Below are positions 1,066-25,131 of a stretch of 36,976 bases of DNA, piece by piece. Position numbers and translations under genes: made by a program. The first letter of the stretch is position 1; every line of letters starts with the position of its first letter. The notes below the pieces were generated by a model, which saw nothing but the letters and a program-made list of their open reading frames with translations, ran no database searches and had not been told where the DNA came from. Origin of the DNA: a virus; IMG/VR virus record IMGVR_UViG_3300024252_000042, positions 1-36,976 of that record; one strand, given 5' to 3'.

Positions 1066-1746
1066 ATGAATGATTTTATAGAAGTATCCTACGAAGTATA
1101 TTCGACACCCTGGTTTATTCGTCAAAAATTAGCACAACTTGAAGAGCACATTATGCTCAGTTTTGACACAGAAACTCGTAGTGTGTACTCCAAAGAAGAA
1201 CGTAAAGAAGCTAAACTTTTACTGAAAAATCCTAAAATCAGTTTAAAAAATAAAAAGTTATCACTGCAGGTAGTTAATAGTTCAGGTTTAAGTTTTCCTT
1301 CGCTGGTAACTGTTACACATTTTATATTTGGTATCAGTGACTGCGAGAGTGTTGTCCTTATTGCCGAAAACATGGCAGTAGAAATGATTATATGGAACTG
1401 GTTAGCCAAATATGAAGGGTTAATTATTGTCCACAACAGTTTGTTTGATCTTAAACTGATGTATCACCGGGTAAAGAAATTTCCGAAGAATTATGAAGAT
1501 ACTCAATTGTTAGCTAAAACTTTTGTTAACCATGTTGATATATGGAAAGCAAAGGTTGGACTGAAAGAACTTGTTGGAGATCACTACCTGCCTGCATGGT
1601 CTTTATTTGACACATACGAACCTAAAAATTTAAGAGATCCTAAGTTTCTTATGTATGCAGCTACTGATGGATGTGCTACAATACTACTTTACGAACAATT
1701 AGAAGAGCACATCAATAAAAATGAGAGAAATTCACGGGGATACTGA
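1066..1746 (+). CDS. DnaQ-like (Pol I type) 3'-5' exonuclease, stand-alone
   Basis: This 226-residue protein has the full DEDDy exonuclease signature. Exo I is FDTET (D34, E36), Exo II is HNSLFD (N124, D128), and Exo III is YAATD (Y197, D201). All metal ligands are present, so it should be active. This is the proofreading domain that normally forms the N-terminal part of a family A DNA polymerase. Here it is a separate gene, and the polymerase gene at 2770 lacks this domain. The exonuclease end overlaps the start of an HNH endonuclease gene by 26 bases, and the last dozen residues (NKNERNSRGY) look like read-in from the inserted gene. It probably acts as the proofreading subunit or partner of the downstream polymerase. 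Confidence 0.87.
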   Translation: MNDFIEVSYEVYSTPWFIRQKLAQLEEHIMLSFDTETRSVYSKEERKEAKLLLKNPKISLKNKKLSLQVVNSSGLSFPSLVTVTHFIFGISDCESVVLIAENMAVEMIIWNWLAKYEGLIIVHNSLFDLKLMYHRVKKFPKNYEDTQLLAKTFVNHVDIWKAKVGLKELVGDHYLPAWSLFDTYEPKNLRDPKFLMYAATDGCATILLYEQLEEHINKNERNSRGY

Positions 1747-2461
1747 TACTAGACTTCATAATATTTGGAAAGGCATGAAAAATAGGTGTAGAGCAAAACA
1801 ATACGAAAAAACTTATAAAAATATTGAAGTTTGTACAGAATGGAAAAATTCTTATTTAGCCTTTAAATCTTGGGCTTTATCTAATAATTATAACGAAAAT
1901 TCTTCTATAGATAGAAAAAATAATAATGATAACTACTGCCCAGATAACTGCAGATGGACAAACCAAATAGTTCAATCTTCAAATACTAGAATTCTTTATT
2001 CCCATAATAAATCCGGATATAGAGGAGTTAGCTGGAATAAGAAATACAGTAAATGGGAGGTGTCAATAAGCGTAAAATCAAAGGTAATAAAAGTAGGGTA
2101 CTACGACTGTATAAAAGAAGCTGCTCAAGCTTATGATACCTATGTACGTGATAACAACCTACCCCATACAACTAATAATACTGCAAAACGTACTGAGTCT
2201 AATACAGGTAAATTACTACTGACTACAAATACCTCTGGGTATATAGGAGTGAGTAGACCTAAAAGAATAAGACACTTAAAAAATTCTTGGGTAGCGCAAA
2301 TCTCTATAAAGAAAAAGAAAATATTCAGTGGGTATTTTAAAACTGCTTTAATAGCTGCAATAAGAAGAGAAGAATTTATTATTGCTACAGGCTCAAGCAG
2401 TAAACGAAACTTTAGTGATAAAGATTTAGAACAACATATAGAGGAGTTTAGTGATGCCTAA
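1721..2461 (+). CDS. HNH homing endonuclease with two AP2 DNA-binding domains
   Basis: The 246-residue protein begins with the typical start of phage HNH-AP2 endonucleases (TRLHNIWKGMKNRC). It continues into an HNH/NUMOD-like core with the conserved pattern IDRKNNNDNYCPDNCRW (about residues 63-80). Two AP2-like DNA-binding domains follow, one at about residues 103-150 (GYRGVSWNKKYSKWEV, then VGYYD) and one at about 176-235 (GYIGVS, WVAQI, SGYF). Such genes are mobile and cut DNA at sites close to where they reside. This one sits between the exonuclease and polymerase genes, overlapping the exonuclease 3' end, which fits insertion into a replication operon. It is more AT-rich than its neighbours. 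The frame looks intact. Confidence 0.9.
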   Translation: MREIHGDTDTRLHNIWKGMKNRCRAKQYEKTYKNIEVCTEWKNSYLAFKSWALSNNYNENSSIDRKNNNDNYCPDNCRWTNQIVQSSNTRILYSHNKSGYRGVSWNKKYSKWEVSISVKSKVIKVGYYDCIKEAAQAYDTYVRDNNLPHTTNNTAKRTESNTGKLLLTTNTSGYIGVSRPKRIRHLKNSWVAQISIKKKKIFSGYFKTALIAAIRREEFIIATGSSSKRNFSDKDLEQHIEEFSDA

Positions 2462-2777
2462 CGTACCATTACAATTAGTAGACTCAAAATTTGCTCATTG
2501 TGAAGAAAATTCTATGAGTAATAAGACTACTATCATAAATAGCCTATCTGACAAATTTCCACAACAGTATATTGATAATTGGTTTGGTGCTGATAGCTTT
2601 TTCAGTACTAATTACCTTACCGGTGTATTAAAACAAGGGTACTTCATAACAGTAGATTACTTTATGGGTTCCGAAATATATTCCGTAAAACTGATATTGT
2701 CAGCCACGATTGAAAATGTAACTGGACCTCTTGATACACTGGAATTAGCAAGAAAATGGGTTAAAGAGAATGTCTAA
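2454..2777 (+). CDS. Hypothetical protein between endonuclease and polymerase (107 aa)
   Basis: The ATG at 2454 is preceded by a strong GAGGAG seven bases upstream and overlaps the endonuclease stop, so it is preferred over the in-frame GTG at 2451 or ATG at 2514. The stop overlaps the polymerase start by 8 bases. Residues 22-107 (from MSNKTTIINSL) look like a compact alpha/beta domain with no motif I recognise. The first 20 residues (PNVPLQLVDSKFAHCEENS) look unrelated to the rest. They could be a displaced tail of the exonuclease left after the endonuclease insertion, which is speculative. Its position suggests a replication accessory protein. Confidence 0.6.
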   Translation: MPNVPLQLVDSKFAHCEENSMSNKTTIINSLSDKFPQQYIDNWFGADSFFSTNYLTGVLKQGYFITVDYFMGSEIYSVKLILSATIENVTGPLDTLELARKWVKENV

Positions 2778-4560
2778 AAGACCTTACGAACTACTGCCGT
2801 TTCCTTATCCGGCTGACTATGATCCTTCTGAAGAACAACCTGATTTCTTTTATGAAAACTTTTTAAAGCATTTCATTCCAGATATGATCAAAATAATGGA
2901 TGCTGGACTGCATATTGATGAAAAAGCAGTCGATGAATTGCGTAAAGTTATTGATGATGTTTTGGAAAAAGTCTCCGTAGCTTTAAAAGCAAACAAGATC
3001 GTAATGCGGTATCAAAAACATAGGCTGCCTGCAGCTCAGAAAGCTCATGCAGAGAAGGCTACCCAAGCAGTAAGAACATCAGATCACTATCTGAAAGAGT
3101 ATGTGGCTTCTGACATGGTACACCGCACATGGGTAATGAACACGTATCTAGAATCTACTGGGGCTAAAGAGTATTGTAAAGAGAAGTGGTCTGTAGCCGA
3201 ATTAAAGAAGCACAATGTATGGGCTAATGATCACCTGGTAGACATGCTAATTCATAAGAATGTTTCAGTTACCAATAAATATGTGAAAGCAGGGATGGTT
3301 GCACTGGCGGAATATAAGGTGGAACTGTGGAACAGGCCACGATACGAAAATGCTAACACAAAAGTTAAGGTGAACGCATTCAACCCTGGAAGCACTAAAC
3401 AGAAACAGGAACTGTTCAGCATGCTTGGTCTAGAGTCTACTGCTACCAGCAAAACAACAGGTGATGATTCCTGGGGAAGAGATCAATTAGAAGAGTTGCA
3501 AAAAAATTCGACAGGTAAAGATCTACTGCTGTTACTGGATGCACTTATCGATCACTCCTTTAGTGGGATTATTAAGAACAATTTTATAAAGGCATTCGAC
3601 TCTTACACCATTGATGGCGTACTCCACGGCAATATTCGTTTAGGTGGAGCTAAGACTTGGAGAAATACGAGCAATTCACCAAATCTTTTGAATATGCCCT
3701 CAACCAAATCCATATACGCAAAACCTTTGAAAAAGTGCTTTATTGCTCCAAAAGGTATGCTTGTAATTCAAGCAGACTATAGCTCTTTAGAAGATGTTGT
3801 ATTAGCAAATATAACATTAGATGAAGGGAAATTAGCAATACAAAAAGATAAAACTCTAGATGCGCATTGTTACAACGCACTTGGCTACTATCCAGAAGAA
3901 ATAGAAAAAGTTATCGGAGTGCAGGGAAATTACAAAGACAAAGTACGAAGATTCAAGCAAATGGTTGAAGGTAAAAATACAATCCTAAAAGAAATACGTC
4001 AAAAAAGTAAACCTAACACCTTCAAATTAGCTTACTTGGGATTTCCGGATGCAGATAAAGGAGGAACAATAACTAAAGAAATTTATGATAATTATCATAA
4101 TGTTCTTTATCCAGAAGTTAGGGCATTCTTAGATGATTATGTTATACCTACAGCACAAAAGCAGGGTTACCTGCATTTGGGCTTAGGAGCTAGGATTTAT
4201 TGTGATAACGTAGATGATGTTTTTCGTACTCTTTTTAACAGCAACTTTCAGTTTTGGAGTATACTTACATTAATAGCTGTTAATGAACTAAATTATCGAA
4301 TAGAGCAGGAACAGCTAACCGAAGAAATTCAAATTACCTCCACCATTTACGACTCTATCTACTCTAATATTTCAAGTAATGCAGAAATAGTAAAGTGGTA
4401 TAACGATAATTTAGTCGAAATAGGTAAAAAAGATTTTCTTGTGTGCCAACAAGTCCCTAATACACTTGAATGTGGTATTGGACGGAACTGGGCAGAAGAA
4501 ATAGCACTGTCACCTAACGCAACAACAGCAGAAATACAAAAAATCTTGAATACTTTTTAG
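2770..4560 (+). CDS. Family A DNA polymerase lacking an exonuclease domain
   Basis: The 596-residue protein aligns with the polymerase part of Pol I. The region FIPDMIKIMDAGLHID matches the start of the thumb domain. HGNIRLGGAKTWR...SPNLLNMPS matches the R-x-S-S-x-x-PNLQNIP element. Motif A is DYSSLED (D336, E341), motif B is R410-QKSKPNTFKLAY-L-G (R410, K414, F418, Y422), and motif C is IYDSIY (D528). The usual HDE of motif C is YDS here, so the second carboxylate is Ser. No 3'-5' exonuclease domain precedes it; that function is in the separate gene at 1066. The start overlaps the previous stop (ATGTCTAA) and has an AAAGAG ribosome-binding site. It replicates the phage genome. Confidence 0.95.
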   Translation: MSKRPYELLPFPYPADYDPSEEQPDFFYENFLKHFIPDMIKIMDAGLHIDEKAVDELRKVIDDVLEKVSVALKANKIVMRYQKHRLPAAQKAHAEKATQAVRTSDHYLKEYVASDMVHRTWVMNTYLESTGAKEYCKEKWSVAELKKHNVWANDHLVDMLIHKNVSVTNKYVKAGMVALAEYKVELWNRPRYENANTKVKVNAFNPGSTKQKQELFSMLGLESTATSKTTGDDSWGRDQLEELQKNSTGKDLLLLLDALIDHSFSGIIKNNFIKAFDSYTIDGVLHGNIRLGGAKTWRNTSNSPNLLNMPSTKSIYAKPLKKCFIAPKGMLVIQADYSSLEDVVLANITLDEGKLAIQKDKTLDAHCYNALGYYPEEIEKVIGVQGNYKDKVRRFKQMVEGKNTILKEIRQKSKPNTFKLAYLGFPDADKGGTITKEIYDNYHNVLYPEVRAFLDDYVIPTAQKQGYLHLGLGARIYCDNVDDVFRTLFNSNFQFWSILTLIAVNELNYRIEQEQLTEEIQITSTIYDSIYSNISSNAEIVKWYNDNLVEIGKKDFLVCQQVPNTLECGIGRNWAEEIALSPNATTAEIQKILNTF

Positions 4561-5030: not shown

Positions 5031-5826
5031 CCCTCTGCAGTATAACGACCACAAAGCCGATATGCCGGATGACTGCATATTTAAAATTAGCCCGAGTCAA
5101 TTCCCTAAATTTGCGGATAAACCACATTTTTGGTATCGATCAGAAGTGCTTGGTATTAAAGACTTCGAATATAATACGTCAACAGTATTAGGTACAGTAG
5201 TTCATTACTGCGCTGATCAAGTTGCCAAACAATTACCGGTTGATACCAATATTATCACTGAGTACATAGAGTCTTTTGAAGATAAAGAAGACTACGATCC
5301 TGATGCTGTAAAACACCATTATGTTGAAATGGCTGAACACCTGGTAAATGACTATGTGCTTGAAAATGCGTTTCTCGAAACAGAGAAATTTGTTGTAGCT
5401 CCAATACGCGATGGTTACTATATTGGTGGTCAACTTGATGCTCTCCAGGGAGAAAAAGACGAGTGTATGATTGTTGATTATAAAACATACCATTCAAAGA
5501 CTACCCCCAGAGCGTTTAACTCTACTTACCGTTACCAACTGCTTACTTATGCTGCAGCTTTAGTTCGATTAGGTTATACACCCACACGTATACGTTTGGT
5601 CTATGTAAATCGCCATATTGAAGGTGCAATCAGTGAAAAGACAGGTAAACAGCTAAAGTCCTATCCACCGACAGTCACAGTGCTTACCGAGACTATTACG
5701 GAAGAAGACTATGCGTTCATAAACTCTCTTTTAGAGTTGTGTGTAGACAGTGTTGAAGCCAGTAAAGCACACCCAGAATTAACTCATGTCATTTGGCATG
5801 ACCAACGCCTTAAAGAGGAAAAATAA
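5023..5826 (+). CDS. PD-(D/E)XK nuclease, Cas4/RecB-like
   Basis: From the ATG at 5023 the protein is 267 residues. It carries the RecB/Cas4-type nuclease core: a His in GTVVHY (H61), the catalytic Asp in GGQLDA (D139), the VDYKT motif (D152, K154), and the QxxxY helix YQLLTY (Q172, Y176). No four-cysteine iron-sulphur cluster signature is evident. The longer frame that starts at 4972 was rejected because its first 17 residues only read through the MazG gene in another frame, while 5023 sits on an ATGACTAA stop-start overlap. It lies directly before a Sak4-like ATPase, so a role in end processing for phage recombination or replication is likely. Confidence 0.88.
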   Translation: MTNPLQYNDHKADMPDDCIFKISPSQFPKFADKPHFWYRSEVLGIKDFEYNTSTVLGTVVHYCADQVAKQLPVDTNIITEYIESFEDKEDYDPDAVKHHYVEMAEHLVNDYVLENAFLETEKFVVAPIRDGYYIGGQLDALQGEKDECMIVDYKTYHSKTTPRAFNSTYRYQLLTYAAALVRLGYTPTRIRLVYVNRHIEGAISEKTGKQLKSYPPTVTVLTETITEEDYAFINSLLELCVDSVEASKAHPELTHVIWHDQRLKEEK

Positions 5827-6491
5827 TGAGCAATGTAAAACTTTTGGTAGCAGCTCTTCCGGCCATCGGTAAAACAACCCTGTTACAAAATTTAACAGAC
5901 ACCCTGGTAATCGCAAGAGACGGTAAAAAATACCCTTTTGCACAACCTCATATCAATGTTCCTGATTACACATCAGTCAGTGAACTTATCGATATAATCT
6001 CAAATACTGTTGAAAAGTATGAAAACAAAATGGGTGAGTTACCAAAAACAGTAGCTATTGATTCAATATCCAAAATTTTATTAGATATTGAAGGTTACTG
6101 TCTGGCAACTATTAAGTCTTTTCCTTATGGAAAAATTAATACAGAAATTAAAGAATTTGTCGATTTCATCGAAAGGGACCTGGCTGATGCTTTTAATGTT
6201 GTTCTGGTATCACATGCCTTATACAACGAAGATACTGTTGGCTACTCACTGGTTAATGCTGGTGGAAGTTATGGTAAGAAAGGTGGAATACTTTCTGAAG
6301 TTGATGAGTCTGTATTTTTGGAACTTAAAGGTAAAAACCGTGTAATTCATTACCGTAATCCAAAAATGTGTGCCAGAACTACTGTGAAAAAATTACCAGA
6401 CAGTATCGATAACAAAGACTTCGACTTACAAAAACATTTAGATATGTTGCAAAGCAGACAATCTGAAGCTACTGCTTGGTCTTTAGGCTAA
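5826..6491 (+). CDS. Sak4/RecA-like AAA ATPase, putative phage recombinase
   Basis: The 221-residue protein is a single P-loop domain. Its Walker A is ALPAIGKTT (residues 10-18), in which Ala replaces the first Gly of GxxxxGKT. Its Walker B is KTVAIDSIS (about residues 73-81). A later VVLVSHAL strand resembles sensor or motif 3. Size and pattern match the Sak4 group of phage single-strand annealing/RecA-like recombinases, which usually sit next to a nuclease and an SSB, as here. GAGGAAAAAT precedes the ATG, which overlaps the nuclease stop (TAATG). The stop codon lies inside the first linker copy of the downstream RNA array, so the array begins exactly where the coding frame ends. Confidence 0.82.
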   Translation: MSNVKLLVAALPAIGKTTLLQNLTDTLVIARDGKKYPFAQPHINVPDYTSVSELIDIISNTVEKYENKMGELPKTVAIDSISKILLDIEGYCLATIKSFPYGKINTEIKEFVDFIERDLADAFNVVLVSHALYNEDTVGYSLVNAGGSYGKKGGILSEVDESVFLELKGKNRVIHYRNPKMCARTTVKKLPDSIDNKDFDLQKHLDMLQSRQSEATAWSLG

Positions 6492-6497
6492 TTTAAC

Positions 6498-6591
6498 GTT
6501 ATGTGCAATTTTCAAACTGCAAGGTTCGGGATAGTAGCTTGTTCTAGACACAGCTCCATCTAACGACGCGTAGCGACTATTCGCACATAAC
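6498..6591 (+). ncRNA. Array RNA 1: structured segment closed by a 9-bp stem
   Basis: The ends GTTATGTGC (6498-6506) and GCACATAAC (6583-6591) are perfectly complementary over 9 bp and enclose 76 bases. Inside, GGATAGT (6529-6535) pairs with ACTATTC (6576-6582), directly against the closing stem. Within that lies a hairpin of AGCTTGT (6536-6542) with ACA and AGCT (6548-6555) around loop TCTAG, with one bulged C. A short CGC-GTA-GCG hairpin (6567-6575) may fill the remaining arm. There is no start codon with a ribosome-binding site and no long frame. The strand is taken as + because the flanking genes are +. It has no anticodon arm, T-loop or CCA end, so it is not a tRNA. Confidence 0.7.
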
Positions 6592-6603
6592 TATTTATTT
6601 AAC

Positions 6604-6711
6604 GTTTTTAACCTTTTTATTTCAATATACTGTGCTCTGATCTACTGACTCTGATTGGCCATATACGTTGTTACATAACAGACAGATATTGTATCTTTGT
6701 CGGTTAAAAGC
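6604..6711 (+). ncRNA. Array RNA 2: structured segment closed by a 10-bp stem
   Basis: GTTTTTAACC (6604-6613) pairs with GGTTAAAAGC (6702-6711) over 10 bp with one G-U pair. It starts at the same linker G and ends at the same linker C as segment 1. Inside, CAATATACTGT (6623-6633) pairs with ACAGATATTG (6682-6691) over 10 bp with a single bulged A. A further TGTT-ACAT-AACA hairpin lies at 6669-6680. A competing 3' hairpin using GACA (6681-6684) and TGTC (6698-6701) is also possible, so the fold is not certain. The primary sequence is unrelated to segment 1. Confidence 0.7.
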
Positions 6712-6723
6712 TATTTATTTAAC

Positions 6724-6791
6724 GCCTATATTTAATGAAACGAATGTATTTTCGTTTTTGAATCTTCGATGGGAGACATCTAGAGGTAGGC
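6724..6791 (+). ncRNA. Array RNA 3: three-way-junction segment closed by an 11-position stem
   Basis: GCCTATATTTA (6724-6734) pairs with TAGAGGTAGGC (6781-6791), with one A-G mismatch and two G-U pairs. The register relative to the linkers is the same as in the other two segments. Two internal hairpins follow. AAACGAA (6738-6744) pairs with TTCGTTT (6751-6757) over 7 bp around a 6-base loop. GATG (6768-6771) pairs with CATC (6777-6780) around loop GGAGA. The second hairpin sits directly on the closing stem. This is the shortest and most clearly folded of the three segments, a simple three-way junction of tRNA size but without tRNA features. Confidence 0.7.
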
Positions 6792-6798
6792 TATTTAT

Positions 6799-6933
6799 TC
6801 AAGGGGTGTACAAATAAGAAATAATAGTAAAACATTTCATGTTGGATTATTTCATTCTCTTGTAGAGGCTGTTATAGCCAGAAACAATTTTATAAAATTA
6901 CATTCACTTAATAATACATTAAGTGGTATTTAA
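6799..6933 (+). pseudogene. Remnant of an AP2 DNA-binding domain (decayed homing endonuclease)
   Basis: The frame ending at the TAA at 6931-6933 reads SRGVQIRNNSKTFHVGLFHS and then LVEAVIARNNFIKLHSLNN. This matches the second half of an AP2 domain: a basic beta-strand, then G-x-F, then a helix with A-x-x-x-A/R-N. The pattern parallels the AP2 domains of the intact HNH endonuclease at 1721. There is no in-frame ATG, GTG or TTG after the previous stop at 6787, and no HNH core upstream, so it cannot be expressed as is. The similarity begins right where the last RNA-array linker ends. It is best read as the 3' stub of a former HNH-AP2 gene, disrupted or replaced by the array. Confidence 0.6.
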
Positions 6934-6991
6934 TAGGGAATTTTCCCGTCAAACTAAAACAACACACTGAGTGTGTAGGAATACAGCATAT
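6905..6991 (+). promoter_or_regulatory. Hairpin-rich leader of the ssDNA-binding protein gene
   Basis: Three hairpins stand in the leader. CACTTAA pairs with TTAAGTG (6905-6911 with 6919-6925, 7 bp). GGGA pairs with TCCC (6936-6947). ACACAC pairs with GTGTGT (6962-6967 with 6971-6976, 6 bp, loop TGA). The last one ends directly against the AGGA ribosome-binding site (6977-6980) of the gene at 6992. A hairpin so close to the binding site could control translation. Known phage SSBs such as T4 gp32 repress their own mRNA through leader structures, so autoregulation is a plausible but unproven reading. No clear sigma-70 promoter was found in this leader. Confidence 0.4.
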
Positions 6992-7684
6992 ATGAGCTTC
7001 TTCAAATCCTCAAAAAAAGCAGAAGATGTAAAACAAGGTGGCAGTAACCACATTACGTCGTCTGGTGTTTACCCAGTAACTTTACTTGCTCCAATCGTAA
7101 GTGTGTCCAAAGGTGGATCTACTTCGATTGATATGTTCGTTGATCATGCAGGGCAAAAACAAGTCATCTACGGCAATCTACGTATTACCAACAAAGATGG
7201 TTCTCCTAATAAAATTGGAGCCAAAATCTTTAATCAGCTGATGATCATTGCTGATGTTGAAGAAGTATCTGATCCTATTGAAATCGATCTTCCAATCGGT
7301 AAGAAAGCAGCTATTAAGACTGTAGCTGCTCTGGAAGACCTGGCTGATATTGATGTCATGATGCGTGTTCAAATGGAGTATGGCATTTACCAGGGAAATA
7401 TCACCGAAAAGAAAGTTATTAAAGCTTTCTTTCGTGCTGGTGATAACGCTTCTGCAGAAGAAATTGTTAACGATGAAGAAGCTGGTTCAGCTTTCGAACG
7501 TGAATCAAAGTACCTGGATAACATCACATTCAAGGATGAAGTAACACCAGAGCAGGTTAAACAGTGGATCTCGGACAAACGTCCAAAAGGGACTGCTGGT
7601 GACTCTGCTGGTGGAGCTGATACTTCTGAAAAGAAGCCTAGCTTCGGCAAGAAACGTGCTTTCGGCAAGAAGAAAGAAAGTTAA
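6992..7684 (+). CDS. Putative single-stranded DNA-binding protein
   Basis: From the ATG at 6992 the protein has 230 residues. The upstream GTG at 6971 was rejected because it lies inside a hairpin and has no ribosome-binding site. The N-terminal 130 residues are beta-rich (GVYPVTLLAPIVSVSKGG, then a YGNLRITNKDGSPNKIG segment), compatible with an OB fold. The C-terminal 35 residues are low-complexity, Gly/Ser-rich, and end in a basic repeat (FGKKRAFGKKK) rather than the acidic tip of bacterial SSB. It follows a nuclease and a Sak4-like recombinase, a position where phages commonly encode an SSB. I base the call mainly on this context and on general likeness to phage replication proteins beginning MSFFKS. 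Confidence 0.5.
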   Translation: MSFFKSSKKAEDVKQGGSNHITSSGVYPVTLLAPIVSVSKGGSTSIDMFVDHAGQKQVIYGNLRITNKDGSPNKIGAKIFNQLMIIADVEEVSDPIEIDLPIGKKAAIKTVAALEDLADIDVMMRVQMEYGIYQGNITEKKVIKAFFRAGDNASAEEIVNDEEAGSAFERESKYLDNITFKDEVTPEQVKQWISDKRPKGTAGDSAGGADTSEKKPSFGKKRAFGKKKES

Positions 7685-20261: not shown

Positions 20262-20603
20262 TTAACGAATAAACTCTAGTTCAGAAATTAAATTATATTG
20301 ATCTCTTATAACTTTGATTCCTGTAACTTCTTGTTTATCTTTATTCTGTTTCATAAGAACACCCAGAGCTTTAAGCAGTAGATCTTTATTAAATTCGTTA
20401 CTTTTAGTAACAGTTGTCTGAATTGTTTTAGCTGTATTGATATTATCAACTAAAGTTTTCTGCATAGTAGCAGAAAGCTTGTCTGTATCAACAGTTACAT
20501 TTACTTCAACAGGTTTACTATTAGTTAAAAGTTCCTCTAAAGGTACTCCTGCATCTAACAATTCTTCTATAGATAATTTAGATTTAGACACAACCTTCCT
20601 CAA
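20262..20603 (-). CDS. Small helical protein of unknown function (113 aa)
   Basis: The 113-residue frame begins inside the end of the helicase-type giant gene (20-base overlap). A GTG at codon 5 (20591), in a GTGTCTAA stop-start overlap, is an alternative start that mirrors the polymerase junction at 2770. The sequence starts with LSIEELLDAGVPLEELL, continues with a beta-like segment (VEVNVTVDTDKLS) and then mostly helices. No membrane segment or enzyme motif is visible. It lies between an ejection-type gene and the holin, so it is probably a minor virion or accessory protein; I do not recognise it. Confidence 0.6.
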   Translation of the reverse strand: MRKVVSKSKLSIEELLDAGVPLEELLTNSKPVEVNVTVDTDKLSATMQKTLVDNINTAKTIQTTVTKSNEFNKDLLLKALGVLMKQNKDKQEVTGIKVIRDQYNLISELEFIR

Positions 20604-23600
20604 CCATCTGTTTTAAAGCTCTTAATATATTATCACTTTTTACAATAAGAGTACTATACCGGGTCTTACTAATACCTGCAAAAGCAGATAGTTTAGCGTC
20701 CTTTTTATAGACAGAAGGATTTGGAATAACAAACTTACTAGTATCTATTTGACTTAACTCATCTACAAATTTAGAAACTACTGGCGGTTTAGTATTAGTA
20801 AGCAGTTTCAGTTCCTGCAGGGCATAACGGTGTGCACCAGCTTCTAGTTTAATAGCACTATCAGCTAAATATTTGTTACTAGCATCTTCAAGATTAAAGC
20901 TTTTTGCAATAGCTTGTGATGTAACAGAAAGATACTTTTCTGTTAAGTTTTTCTGTTTAGTGTGTCCAACTTCGTGTGCAACAATAAACTCTAATAGTGT
21001 TTCAATCGGTAAAGCATTTAGGATACCTGGTAAATTGATATTAAATTTGTCTAGTAAATACTGTGTGGTTACATTCTTCTGTCTACTGACTAAAGAATCT
21101 GTTTTACCGGTTATATGTGCAATAACTTCAGCTTTTGTAATTCCTTTGCGTAACGTTATTTTTCCATTAGTTGTTACCGCTAATGAACCATTATCATCAA
21201 TTTTTTCAGTAAGTGTAACTTCTACTTCTTTATCACCAACACGAACAGTACTTTTTTCTCCTGCAGGTTTAGTTATAACTTTTTCTTTTTCCCTTTTAGT
21301 TTTTGAAGTATCTCCGACTATCTCATTAACTGTTTTACCTACTCCAAGTTCTAGCTTATTGCCGACCATAACTAATTTGTCAGTAGGTCTAGAGGTGGCT
21401 ACATATAAAGATCTTAAAGTGTCTACCCATACCGGTGAACCCGTAGTTCCTGTTATGTTGCTGTAATCTACGTATACAGTTTTATATGTACTGCCTTGTG
21501 CCTTATGTGTATTAATTATGTAAGCTGGCCCTAATCCTTCAGTCAGTCCCCTAATTATACTATCTGCTATTCCTGGATACCTTTTCTGGTTAGCGGAGAA
21601 CTGCTTTATTAAAGCTTTCTTAGTATTCTTATTTCCTATAATAATATCATAATTCTTACTGTCAATTGAAACAGGAAGCAAATCTACTGGTATGCCTATA
21701 TAAGTACCGCTGCCTACCGTTTTTGGTATATCTATATAAGTTTGTCTTGTTTCCCCTGTAACAACTACTTCATCCCCGTTGTGCAAAGAAGTAGCAGATA
21801 CTTCTCCATTTTTATAAGTAGACGCAATAGCACCAATCATTAAATGCTCGTCTACCAGAAAAGGATATTTTTCTACATCGGCAGCATGTGGGTCATTCGG
21901 AAACAGTTTTGCCCGTATTCTGGCTCTTATGTTTTTACTACTTTGATGTGCAGCATTATTATAATTAATCCATTTTACATTGAATTGGTCTTCTAGGTGT
22001 TCTTCAACAAATTCATCTATTATTGGATTAATATGTCCTGATTTATACAGAACCGTACCTTGTGCAGTTTTGCTGTCTTTACCGTCAAAAATAATATTAG
22101 GGTTTCTTTTACCCCTTATAAATTTAGCTCCTTCACGGATAGTAGAATATACATATTCAACAGCATCTGCCAAGATGTCTGTTACTTGCAGTATAGGTGA
22201 GTCACCTTGTTGTCTCATACGCTGGTACAAAGACGCAGTATTTGAAGAATCTACATCTGCGCTTAATGGATTACTAAACCCGGTCAGTTTGCTGAATACA
22301 GGAGATATACCTAATTTGTTAGGATCGCCTTTCTTGTCTACTGGGGGTAACTGCACATTATCTCCCATAAAGATAATGCGTGCATGTATCTCTTCTGCCA
22401 GATCTAATAACGACTCAACAGTACTGAGCAATGTCATAGAGGCCTCATCTACCACAATTAACTTAACACCTTCAGTCCGTAGTCTTTCTACACTATTTTC
22501 GTACAACATTAAGTCTTGTTTAAAATCTTCTCCTTCTTTTTTGCTAGGTACTAATCCCAATAGAGAAGCTATAGTAGAAAAGTTACTAAATTCTTTAGCG
22601 GAATTTTTTATTACCTGTTTTGCTTTATGCGTAGGCAATGCAAACTGTACTTCACTGGCAGGTACACCCATCTCTCTTATGGCTTTACTTATTACAGTAG
22701 TTTTTCCTGTACCACCTCTGCCAGATAATATAAAAATACGGTTAGTGGTTAAGTTACTCCACCAATTTTTTAGTGAATCAATTGCTGTAGTTTGATCAGC
22801 ATTTGCATAAATATCTTTATTAGGAAACAGTCTATATTTTTTAGGCGTTACTACTTCTTTAGTCCCAGTAGATTCTAGAGGAGTACTAACAGCTTTTTCT
22901 GCTTTAACTTTTGTTTCCGTCTTTTTAGGCTCAGCCTTTGTTTTTGGTTTAGCTTTATCATCTCGTTCTTTAACCCAGGCATCTATTAAAGAATTAAATT
23001 CATCTATATTCTGTGGAGTAACTTGAGATAATTGACTAGTTACATGTGCTTTAAGTTTTGGATACTTTATACCTTCAATTTTCTTTAATAAAGCATCATA
23101 CTTCTTATTGTACTCAGTATCGCTAGATTCTGGCTCTTTAGAGGCTGTTTCAGCAGACTTCTCAGGTTTGGCTTGTGATTGCTTGTCTGTTTGCTCAGAC
23201 GGCTTAGAAGGGGCTATATTGGCTAAAGGAGACTTATTGAAAGAAGCTTTAGCTTGAGCATCAAACAGCTCAATATGTTTATCTATTAAGGCTATTTCAG
23301 AACGTAGCTGTTTTTCAAATGCAGCTGCATGCTGTTTATACCCCTTAGGAGGATGTTCTAATTTGTATACTTGGCTATCTCTAAAAGATACCAATGCCTG
23401 CATTGTCTTAACTAATGCTTTAAAGTTCTGTGATTGTATGGCAGAAGCTACTTTTTGTTTATACTGCTTAACTCCAAGAAAGCCTTTTACAGGATCTCCT
23501 TCTACAATATCTTTATTTACTTCTCCTACACTGGTAGCTTGTTGTCTAGCTTCTTCATAAGTTTTAACTACTGTTTTATCTTCAGTAGATAAGTCGTTAA

Positions 23601-25131
23601 AAAATATATTCCCTTTAATGCTGCTTAAGGTTTTAGTCTCTACATCTCCACCAGCTTTAAGTGTATTAACTACTGTGGCTACTGCTGCTTCACTAACTTC
23701 GGCAGAGACATCTTTAGAGTTGTTAATAACCTCTTCTGCCTGTTTAGGTGTAAGACCAGTAGTTTCTGCAGACTTTACAGCTAATGCTATATCGGTAAGT
23801 ATTTTAACTTTACTGCTTAATTCTAAAATACGATCTACATCTTTACTGCTTCCTTCTGCAGTAGCGTCAATACCTGCATTGGCTTTGTCTATCAGGTCCA
23901 ATACAGAAGAGAGATTATCTTTATGTTCTTCGAAAGTAGTAAATTTAGAGGTGTCTTTTTCTATAGCTGCTTCTGCAGCAGTTATAAAATCATTGCTGGC
24001 TACAGCTTTTTCTTGACGTTTAGTTGTGCTTGTTTCTATAGCTTTATCTATTGCTTTTGATGCTTTATCAAGAGTTTTAGAAGCAGCTGTTTTAACTCCT
24101 CCAGAAATTCCAGATACTGCTTTTACTCCTCCACCTACTCCAGCACCAATAGTTGCGTTGACTGCAGGAGTTTCCAGCAATGCAGGGTCTAGTAGGCCTG
24201 TAACAGTATCACCTCTACCAGACAGTTCTGTTAAATATTCTGCTGAGTATTCTTGTACACTTTCAGCAGTACTGCCTTTACCAACATTCCCCGCTGTACC
24301 TAATAGTGTTTGTTTAGATTTAACTGCTTTCGCTACATTGCCTAACTTACCAAACAAGAACTTAGATTCGATAGTTTCAATAGCAGCTGATACGCCAGCA
24401 GCAATCATTATGTTCCGCAAATCATCACCATCAGGCTCTAATCCATTATGTGTTTTTTTATGGCGGTCTATTGATTGCTGTGCTCTATCACCGAATACGC
24501 CAGCATAGGCCATTGCAAGAGCACTACCACCCTTGGCCATTGCTGCCATAGTAGCAAACGACTGACCAAATACTTGTGGCAATGCTGCAGGGTTATTAAC
24601 AATAGAGCCACCAAGTCCAATCAGCACATCTACTGCTCCACTGTTATCGCGGTAAGCCCGGGTAGCATCTTTGTGAAATTTTTCTGTAAGAAGAGGGTTA
24701 TGAAATTTATCAGTAAAAGACTGTGCATGATCTCCCAAGATGTCAAAGAAATCTAACATATTTACATTCATGGCACTTTCTTCACCACCAACAGCATTAG
24801 CTATTATATTGGGAAAAGATAGTACAGAATTTAGAAGAGTTCCACCACCACTTACAAGAGAACCGGCAGTATTGACCAAGTACCCCAAGCCAGTCTGAAC
24901 CGTAGCATCGTGAAGATAATAAGGAAATTCTCTTGGATTGTTTATAACAACCTGTTCATCTTCGACGTTAGACAAATCTACTGTGTTATAAGGCACGTTA
25001 GATAAGTCTAATGACCTATAAGGTACAGCACCAAGATCTATTTGTTTCTGAGTAGTTGTATCAAATAACTCATCTTGCTTTTTTGCAAGAATAGAGTCAA
25101 ACAGTTGAGTATCGTCAGATAGCGTAGACAT
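20584..25131 (-). CDS. Polyvalent late protein: SF1B helicase fused to HExxH metallopeptidase-like domain (1515 aa)
   Basis: Residues about 70-350 are Gly/Ala-rich with several hydrophobic stretches (GLGYLVNTAGSLVSGGGTLL, IGLGGSIV), as in ejection proteins that insert into membranes. About 350-720 is helical, then a Lys/Pro/Glu linker. Residues about 780-1260 form an SF1B RecD/Dda-like helicase. Walker A is GRGGTGKTT near 803, motif II is VDEAS (D895), motif III is GDNVQLPP, then THKAQGSTYKTVYVD and LYVATSRP near 1240. Near the C-terminus IVAHEVGHTKQ (HEVGH, 1386-1390) is a metallopeptidase-type motif. All key helicase residues are present. It lies in the virion operon, far from the replication genes, so it may be carried in the particle and act on entering DNA. 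Confidence 0.85.
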   Translation of the reverse strand: MSTLSDDTQLFDSILAKKQDELFDTTTQKQIDLGAVPYRSLDLSNVPYNTVDLSNVEDEQVVINNPREFPYYLHDATVQTGLGYLVNTAGSLVSGGGTLLNSVLSFPNIIANAVGGEESAMNVNMLDFFDILGDHAQSFTDKFHNPLLTEKFHKDATRAYRDNSGAVDVLIGLGGSIVNNPAALPQVFGQSFATMAAMAKGGSALAMAYAGVFGDRAQQSIDRHKKTHNGLEPDGDDLRNIMIAAGVSAAIETIESKFLFGKLGNVAKAVKSKQTLLGTAGNVGKGSTAESVQEYSAEYLTELSGRGDTVTGLLDPALLETPAVNATIGAGVGGGVKAVSGISGGVKTAASKTLDKASKAIDKAIETSTTKRQEKAVASNDFITAAEAAIEKDTSKFTTFEEHKDNLSSVLDLIDKANAGIDATAEGSSKDVDRILELSSKVKILTDIALAVKSAETTGLTPKQAEEVINNSKDVSAEVSEAAVATVVNTLKAGGDVETKTLSSIKGNIFFNDLSTEDKTVVKTYEEARQQATSVGEVNKDIVEGDPVKGFLGVKQYKQKVASAIQSQNFKALVKTMQALVSFRDSQVYKLEHPPKGYKQHAAAFEKQLRSEIALIDKHIELFDAQAKASFNKSPLANIAPSKPSEQTDKQSQAKPEKSAETASKEPESSDTEYNKKYDALLKKIEGIKYPKLKAHVTSQLSQVTPQNIDEFNSLIDAWVKERDDKAKPKTKAEPKKTETKVKAEKAVSTPLESTGTKEVVTPKKYRLFPNKDIYANADQTTAIDSLKNWWSNLTTNRIFILSGRGGTGKTTVISKAIREMGVPASEVQFALPTHKAKQVIKNSAKEFSNFSTIASLLGLVPSKKEGEDFKQDLMLYENSVERLRTEGVKLIVVDEASMTLLSTVESLLDLAEEIHARIIFMGDNVQLPPVDKKGDPNKLGISPVFSKLTGFSNPLSADVDSSNTASLYQRMRQQGDSPILQVTDILADAVEYVYSTIREGAKFIRGKRNPNIIFDGKDSKTAQGTVLYKSGHINPIIDEFVEEHLEDQFNVKWINYNNAAHQSSKNIRARIRAKLFPNDPHAADVEKYPFLVDEHLMIGAIASTYKNGEVSATSLHNGDEVVVTGETRQTYIDIPKTVGSGTYIGIPVDLLPVSIDSKNYDIIIGNKNTKKALIKQFSANQKRYPGIADSIIRGLTEGLGPAYIINTHKAQGSTYKTVYVDYSNITGTTGSPVWVDTLRSLYVATSRPTDKLVMVGNKLELGVGKTVNEIVGDTSKTKREKEKVITKPAGEKSTVRVGDKEVEVTLTEKIDDNGSLAVTTNGKITLRKGITKAEVIAHITGKTDSLVSRQKNVTTQYLLDKFNINLPGILNALPIETLLEFIVAHEVGHTKQKNLTEKYLSVTSQAIAKSFNLEDASNKYLADSAIKLEAGAHRYALQELKLLTNTKPPVVSKFVDELSQIDTSKFVIPNPSVYKKDAKLSAFAGISKTRYSTLIVKSDNILRALKQMVEEGCV

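Follow-up and report, generated by a model that had tools for sequence, protein, structure and literature searches.

Linker-framed structured segments between the Sak4 and SSB genes of a marine N4-like phage, a putative small-RNA array

In a marine, N4-like virus that infects bacteria, the gap between the genes for a Sak4-like single-stranded DNA (ssDNA) annealing protein and an ssDNA-binding protein (SSB) holds three structured segments of 94, 108 and 68 nt, which are unrelated in sequence and framed by a common AU-rich linker. That this array is structured at the RNA level is well supported. We consider it probable (roughly 60%) that it represents one precursor RNA whose linkers are cut to release three stable small RNAs, with the transcription unit, the cutting and the release being inferred. 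The array seems to be a type of small-RNA cluster that has not been described before, belonging with the small RNA clusters of virulent phages. Few small RNAs of virulent phages are known. Here the ends are defined by the frame, the location is conserved and the contents can be exchanged, which supplies candidate RNAs to search for together with naturally occurring variants in different phages. Provided that the RNAs are indeed produced, the constant linker would show how they arise, and the turnover of the contents would point to selection for change.

Layout of the array and its genomic setting

The window, i.e., the whole stretch of DNA analyzed here, comprises the 36,976 bases of an IMG/VR virus record. 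Its source is an N4-like podophage, as PHROG identifies genes for a portal, a major head protein, a virion RNA polymerase (phrog_2206), a Sak4-like protein, an SSB and a DNA polymerase. Among cultured phages, the Alteromonas phages PT11-V19 and R22Y are closest, with ~67% Sak4 identity. Like the stable sRNA type of virulent phages, the array is non-coding, intergenic and conserved in structure; the longest + strand ORF inside the Sak4-SSB gap of the window comprises 49 aa and has a TTG start.

The three segments and their linkers lie where the original prediction had placed them (Table 1). The 12-nt linker TATTTATTTAAC sits precisely between the final C of one segment and the initial G of the next, and every segment of the window starts with G, ends with C and has a closing stem of its own. 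The shared linker frame that had been described stands for two exact copies and one copy with two changes; the first linker is weaker than had been implied, being a half copy that overlaps the Sak4 stop codon. Segments of relatives are likewise preceded by TTAAC, as found in the half linker.

Table 1. Features of the array and its neighbors in the window.
Feature	Position	Strand	Basis or remark
Sak4-like ssDNA annealing protein gene, upstream neighbor	5826..6491	+	PHROG phrog_124, 1.7e-20
Half linker TTTAAC (ATTTAAC with last A of Sak4 stop codon)	6492..6497	+	sequence
Structured segment 1, 94 nt	6498..6591	+	closing stem GTTATGTGC/GCACATAAC
Linker TATTTATTTAAC, exact copy	6592..6603	+	sequence
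Structured segment 2, 108 nt	6604..6711	+	closing stem GTTTTTAACC/GGTTAAAAGC
TGATTGGCCATATAC inside segment 2	6652-6666	+	common to window and an L015 segment
Linker TATTTATTTAAC, exact copy	6712..6723	+	sequence
Structured segment 3, 68 nt	6724..6791	+	closing stem GCCTAT../..GGTAGGC
Inner hairpin TCTTCGATGGGAGA of segment 3	6763-6776	+	common to window and L009
Linker variant TATTTATTCAAG, two changes	6792..6803	+	sequence
A+T-rich hairpin CACTTAATAATACATTAAGTG before GTATTT	6905..6925	+	fold; place where eight relatives carry a covarying hairpin
ssDNA-binding protein (SSB) gene, downstream neighbor	6992..7684	+	PHROG phrog_743, 6.3e-15

The SSB leader, at 6939-6976 of the window and at the same place in relatives, contains a GGG-NNNN-CCC hairpin, and also a hairpin with a 3-nt TGA loop that adjoins or holds the Shine-Dalgarno sequence and whose arms vary among relatives. 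These hairpins may serve SSB self-control, or may reflect a likeness to the hairpin promoters of the N4 virion polymerase. Elsewhere in the window, the DNA polymerase region (1066-4560) apparently consists of a part that is exonuclease-like by position (1066-1746) and a polymerase part (2770-4560), an HNH endonuclease gene at 1721-2461 lying between the two. In the virion gene block, a 1515-aa protein (20584-25131, - strand) contains a region resembling Dda helicase (phrog_325, 1.7e-52) and also matches, weakly, the N-terminal portion of the virion RNA polymerase family.

Closing stems and their conservation in relatives

As had been predicted, each segment is closed by its own inverted repeat. 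Counted inward from the linkers, segments 1 and 2 form 9 and 10 contiguous pairs, one of those in segment 2 being G-U, and segment 3 forms six contiguous pairs followed by four of the next five (10/11 with one mismatch). Shuffled sequences held in the linker-fixed register reached the stem in 0/20,000 cases for segment 1 and at frequencies of 1e-4 and 6e-3 for segments 2 and 3. As natural controls we used 118 other occurrences of the 14-mer CTATTTATTTAACG in unrelated viral contigs, with the register freely chosen in the control search. None of these showed a comparable frame; their best two-sided stem sum was at most 13.5, compared to 18.5 and 15.0 at the two linkers of the window. In whole genomes, tandem stem pairs scoring at least 8.5 are common by chance if the register is free, and a genome-wide count of such pairs was rejected as proof. 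The stems alone would thus not carry the claim, which draws its strength from the relatives and from the register fixed by the linkers.

Internal hairpins, also part of the original prediction, are predicted by folding inside the segments, but with modest z-scores (-1.5 to -2.7). When base pairs were limited to spans of at most 125 nt, the closing stems of segments 1 and 2 were near certain and that of segment 3 was weaker (0.58), with the linkers after segments 1 and 2 unpaired at 0.95 and 0.81. A global fold of the whole gap gave mean pair probabilities of 0.56 and 0.38 for the closing stems of segments 1 and 3, and the minimum of another 505-nt fold lacked both of these stems. Folding energies of the + strand were often no better than those of the - strand.

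Relatives were gathered by Sak4 and SSB searches, which yielded ~60 and ~50 viral loci. The window's array is repeated exactly in four contigs, and framed segments occur at the same Sak4-SSB gap in five relatives: four segments in L015, two each in L017 and L154 (with a different linker in L154), and one each in L009 (87% Sak4 identity) and L164. The gaps of L152, L157, L160 and L161 hold other apparently structured sequence without the linker, with less clear folding and with segment limits set by guess, and in many relatives the gap measures only 30-100 bases and holds nothing. On the Sak4 tree the framed arrays cluster, so that two changes suffice, and the unframed ones form one group. A scan of viral contigs for GATTGGCCATATAC gave matches with the surrounding segment solely in the window copies and L015. 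Annotated phages, including the nearest cultured ones, PT11-V19 and R22Y, yielded no array, and a search of bacterial genomes yielded no Sak4 relatives. Immediately before its array, L015 carries an HNH endonuclease gene inserted in the Sak4-SSB gap (L015:10667-11200; family assigned by eye). The Sak4 genes in the L343, L368 and Alteromonas phage AD45 records are apparently interrupted by group I intron-like sequence with GATATAGTC-type motifs, again judged by eye.

In the register set by the linkers, 89/96 end positions of 12 segments pair, compared to 36.9 ± 4.6 after shuffling and 32-48/96 in slid registers. Across nine segments, 93.8% of cells are paired and 28 cells are changed on both sides, with 0/500 shuffles reaching either value, and the first pair is G-C in all nine. 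Since not all nine segments are homologous, what these statistics demonstrate is that the frame is conserved, not that a single family covaries. Covariation within families rests on pairs of sequences, since segments 2 and 3 have one homologue each; segment 1 has none. Segment 2 and its homologue in L015 have the stretches TGATTGGCCATATAC and TTTTTATTT in common. Of their ten closing-stem pairs, five are changed on both sides with pairing retained, and behind the shared motif one has the hairpin TGTTA-CA-TAACA where the other has GCATG-AG-CATGC. CTTCGATGGGAG is common to segment 3 and the L009 segment, and the outer pair of the hairpin changes from U-A to C-G. Relatives with linker-framed segments and compensatory stem changes, whose absence would have spoken against the original prediction, are thus present. 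With the segment-2 family found in the window and L015 and the segment-3 family in the window and L009, different relatives carry different subsets, indicating that segments come and go one by one.

A 9-bp hairpin follows the RNAs of the gap, framed as well as unframed, in eight relatives, and a T run follows the hairpin in most of them. In the alignment of these eight phages 72/72 cells are paired, and seven of the nine pairs have changes on both sides. One pair is U-G in six phages and U-A in two, and is never A-C. This recurrent U-G, together with six G-U against one A-C in the closing stems, indicates that the + strand is the RNA. The A+T-rich hairpin at this place in the window differs from that of the relatives and lies outside the eight-phage alignment; it is a candidate terminator.

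Processing of the array and alternative readings

In the model that we favor, the gap would be transcribed from the + strand, where the middle (replication gene) transcript ends, into a precursor with three independent structured RNAs. Each RNA would fold as a unit behind a closing stem of 6-10 bp with an invariant G-C first pair. The single-stranded AU-rich linkers would then be cut, most likely by host RNase E, and exonucleases would trim back to the closing stems, which would protect the RNA ends, so that three stable small RNAs are produced. In the eight relatives, the conserved hairpin would terminate the array. RNase E prefers R-N-W-U, with U at +2, within AU-rich RNA that is single-stranded (PMC5222698). 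The linker contains AU/UUA twice (the slash marks the proposed cut), which agrees with a U at +2, whereas the third base after the cut, an A, deviates from the favored U.

Instead of ever being cut, the array might stay in the mRNA as a structured 3′ untranslated region, where it would protect the Sak4 message or insulate this message from SSB. As expected for such a barrier, structure is kept and sequence is not; moreover, the array directly follows the Sak4 stop codon and, in relatives, precedes the covarying hairpin with its U tail. However, a barrier needs neither an exactly repeated 12-nt linker nor several multi-branched units that differ from each other and contain conserved internal motifs (TGATTGGCCATATAC, CTTCGATGGGAG), and many relatives do without any such structure. 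We regard this reading as unlikely.

We also consider it rather improbable that the middle RNA polymerase (RNAPII) uses the linkers as promoters, so that the first G of each segment would be +1 and each segment would start its own transcript. The N4 RNAPII promoter is minimal and AT-rich, spanning -7 to +2 (PMC4496689), which could still fit at the linker, and every segment begins with G. Yet intergenic matches to the linker with up to two changes, searched in five genomes, all lie inside arrays and none lies before other middle genes, which argues against a general middle-region promoter. A promoter would, moreover, leave unexplained the 3′ boundary that the closing stem also needs.

We likewise give little credit to the segments acting as DNA, either as cruciform hairpins in replication, recombination or polymerase binding, or as mobile cassettes jointed by the linker. 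DNA hairpins are read by N4 enzymes (PMC4496689), and the segment subsets differ among relatives (window/L015, window/L009) as if cassettes had been swapped. Against this, the predominance of G-U over A-C in the stems and the recurrent U-G in the end hairpin point to + strand RNA, and swapping of cassettes is compatible with an RNA function.

A decayed cluster of tRNA-like genes, to which the tandem units, closing stems and AU-rich spacers reminiscent of a tRNA operon and the tRNA genes with large insertions in two relatives might point, is largely refuted and most improbable, as the segments are without anticodon, T arm and CCA, ARAGORN finds no tRNA cloverleaf and Rfam no tRNA match even at E of 5 to 10, in keeping with the earlier statement that these are not tRNAs.

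Among the tRNA genes of relatives, the genome of L164 encodes a tRNA-Ile(GAU) (L377:3567-3716, - strand; Rfam tRNA score 31.9, cut-off 29) in which ~80 nt, with a closing stem of their own, are inserted directly behind the anticodon arm; conceivably, this insertion could shield the tRNA from tRNA-cutting defenses. A tRNA-like gene with ~115 extra bases in the genome of L015 (L374:4380-4569, - strand) is seen in ARAGORN intron mode only and is not listed by Rfam at E of 1.

Comparison with known elements and possible roles

None of the 4227 Rfam covariance models gave a gathering-level match in the window, and at permissive thresholds the array and its relatives gave only chance-level matches. 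CRISPR arrays combine near-identical repeats of ~23-50 nt with unique spacers of similar length; here, the repeat measures 12-14 nt and the “spacers” 68-108 nt with their own closing stems, which bears out the original view that the array is not a CRISPR. ToxI of type III toxin-antitoxin systems also consists of tandem folded RNAs cut from one precursor, but these are near-identical ~36-nt repeats before toxN, whereas the window segments are unrelated and adjoin Sak4 and SSB rather than a toxN-type gene. As to integron attC sites, ATTTAAC fits RYYYAAC, but segments 2 and 3 start with GTTTTTA and GCCTATA, and the matching inverted core GTTRRRY is absent. PeSL cassettes of T4-type phages are likewise intergenic, structured and shuffled between relatives; they comprise a promoter and a simple stem-loop, whereas the window segments are longer and branched, and a search for an excess of sigma-70-like promoters gave none.

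The band C and D RNAs of phage T4 are made within the tRNA cluster transcript. Unlike the array, they are two RNAs beside tRNAs with no repeated linker frame, and no sequence relation to the array could be shown. As with the RNAs proposed here, they are small RNAs of a virulent phage with unknown function, and since the 1970s no function has been assigned to the small RNAs of T4 (PMC4933390). sRNA1 and sRNA2 of the virulent Pseudomonas phage PAK_P3, whose function is also unknown, resemble the array in being intergenic and ~100 nt long, and are abundant in infection (PMC4933390). In contrast to the array, they come from two neighboring intergenic regions without a framed tandem array, in a different phage group. 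Literature searches for a described element with this layout turned up only unrelated phage sRNAs, and those for non-coding RNA in this phage family found nothing beyond one paper with a passing mention of the two.

In a search for antisense targets of the two conserved motifs in phage genomes, the best matches lay inside genes, not at start codons, and did not correspond between genomes. Our tentative guess is that the released RNAs bind host or phage proteins in trans and change fast because their partner does; a fast change of content in a fixed frame might fit RNAs that bind a changing partner, e.g., a host defense protein. More speculatively, and in our judgment unlikely, the array could stand for a class of phage RNA cassette arrays, in which unrelated, fast-changing units are joined by a constant linker serving as both cutting site and recombination joint and are swapped like anti-defense genes, the units being protein-binding RNAs against host defenses.

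A second kind of array is present in the genome of L150 (L383:10745-11016, - strand), with three segments that have very long closing stems (scores 18, 14 and 15.5) and are separated by CCAAAC and ACTTAAC, with ACTAAAC after the last segment. The genomes of L015 (L374) and L164 (L376) contain another probable structured RNA elsewhere, with the common stretch GTCCGAAGCGTATG within its closing stem.
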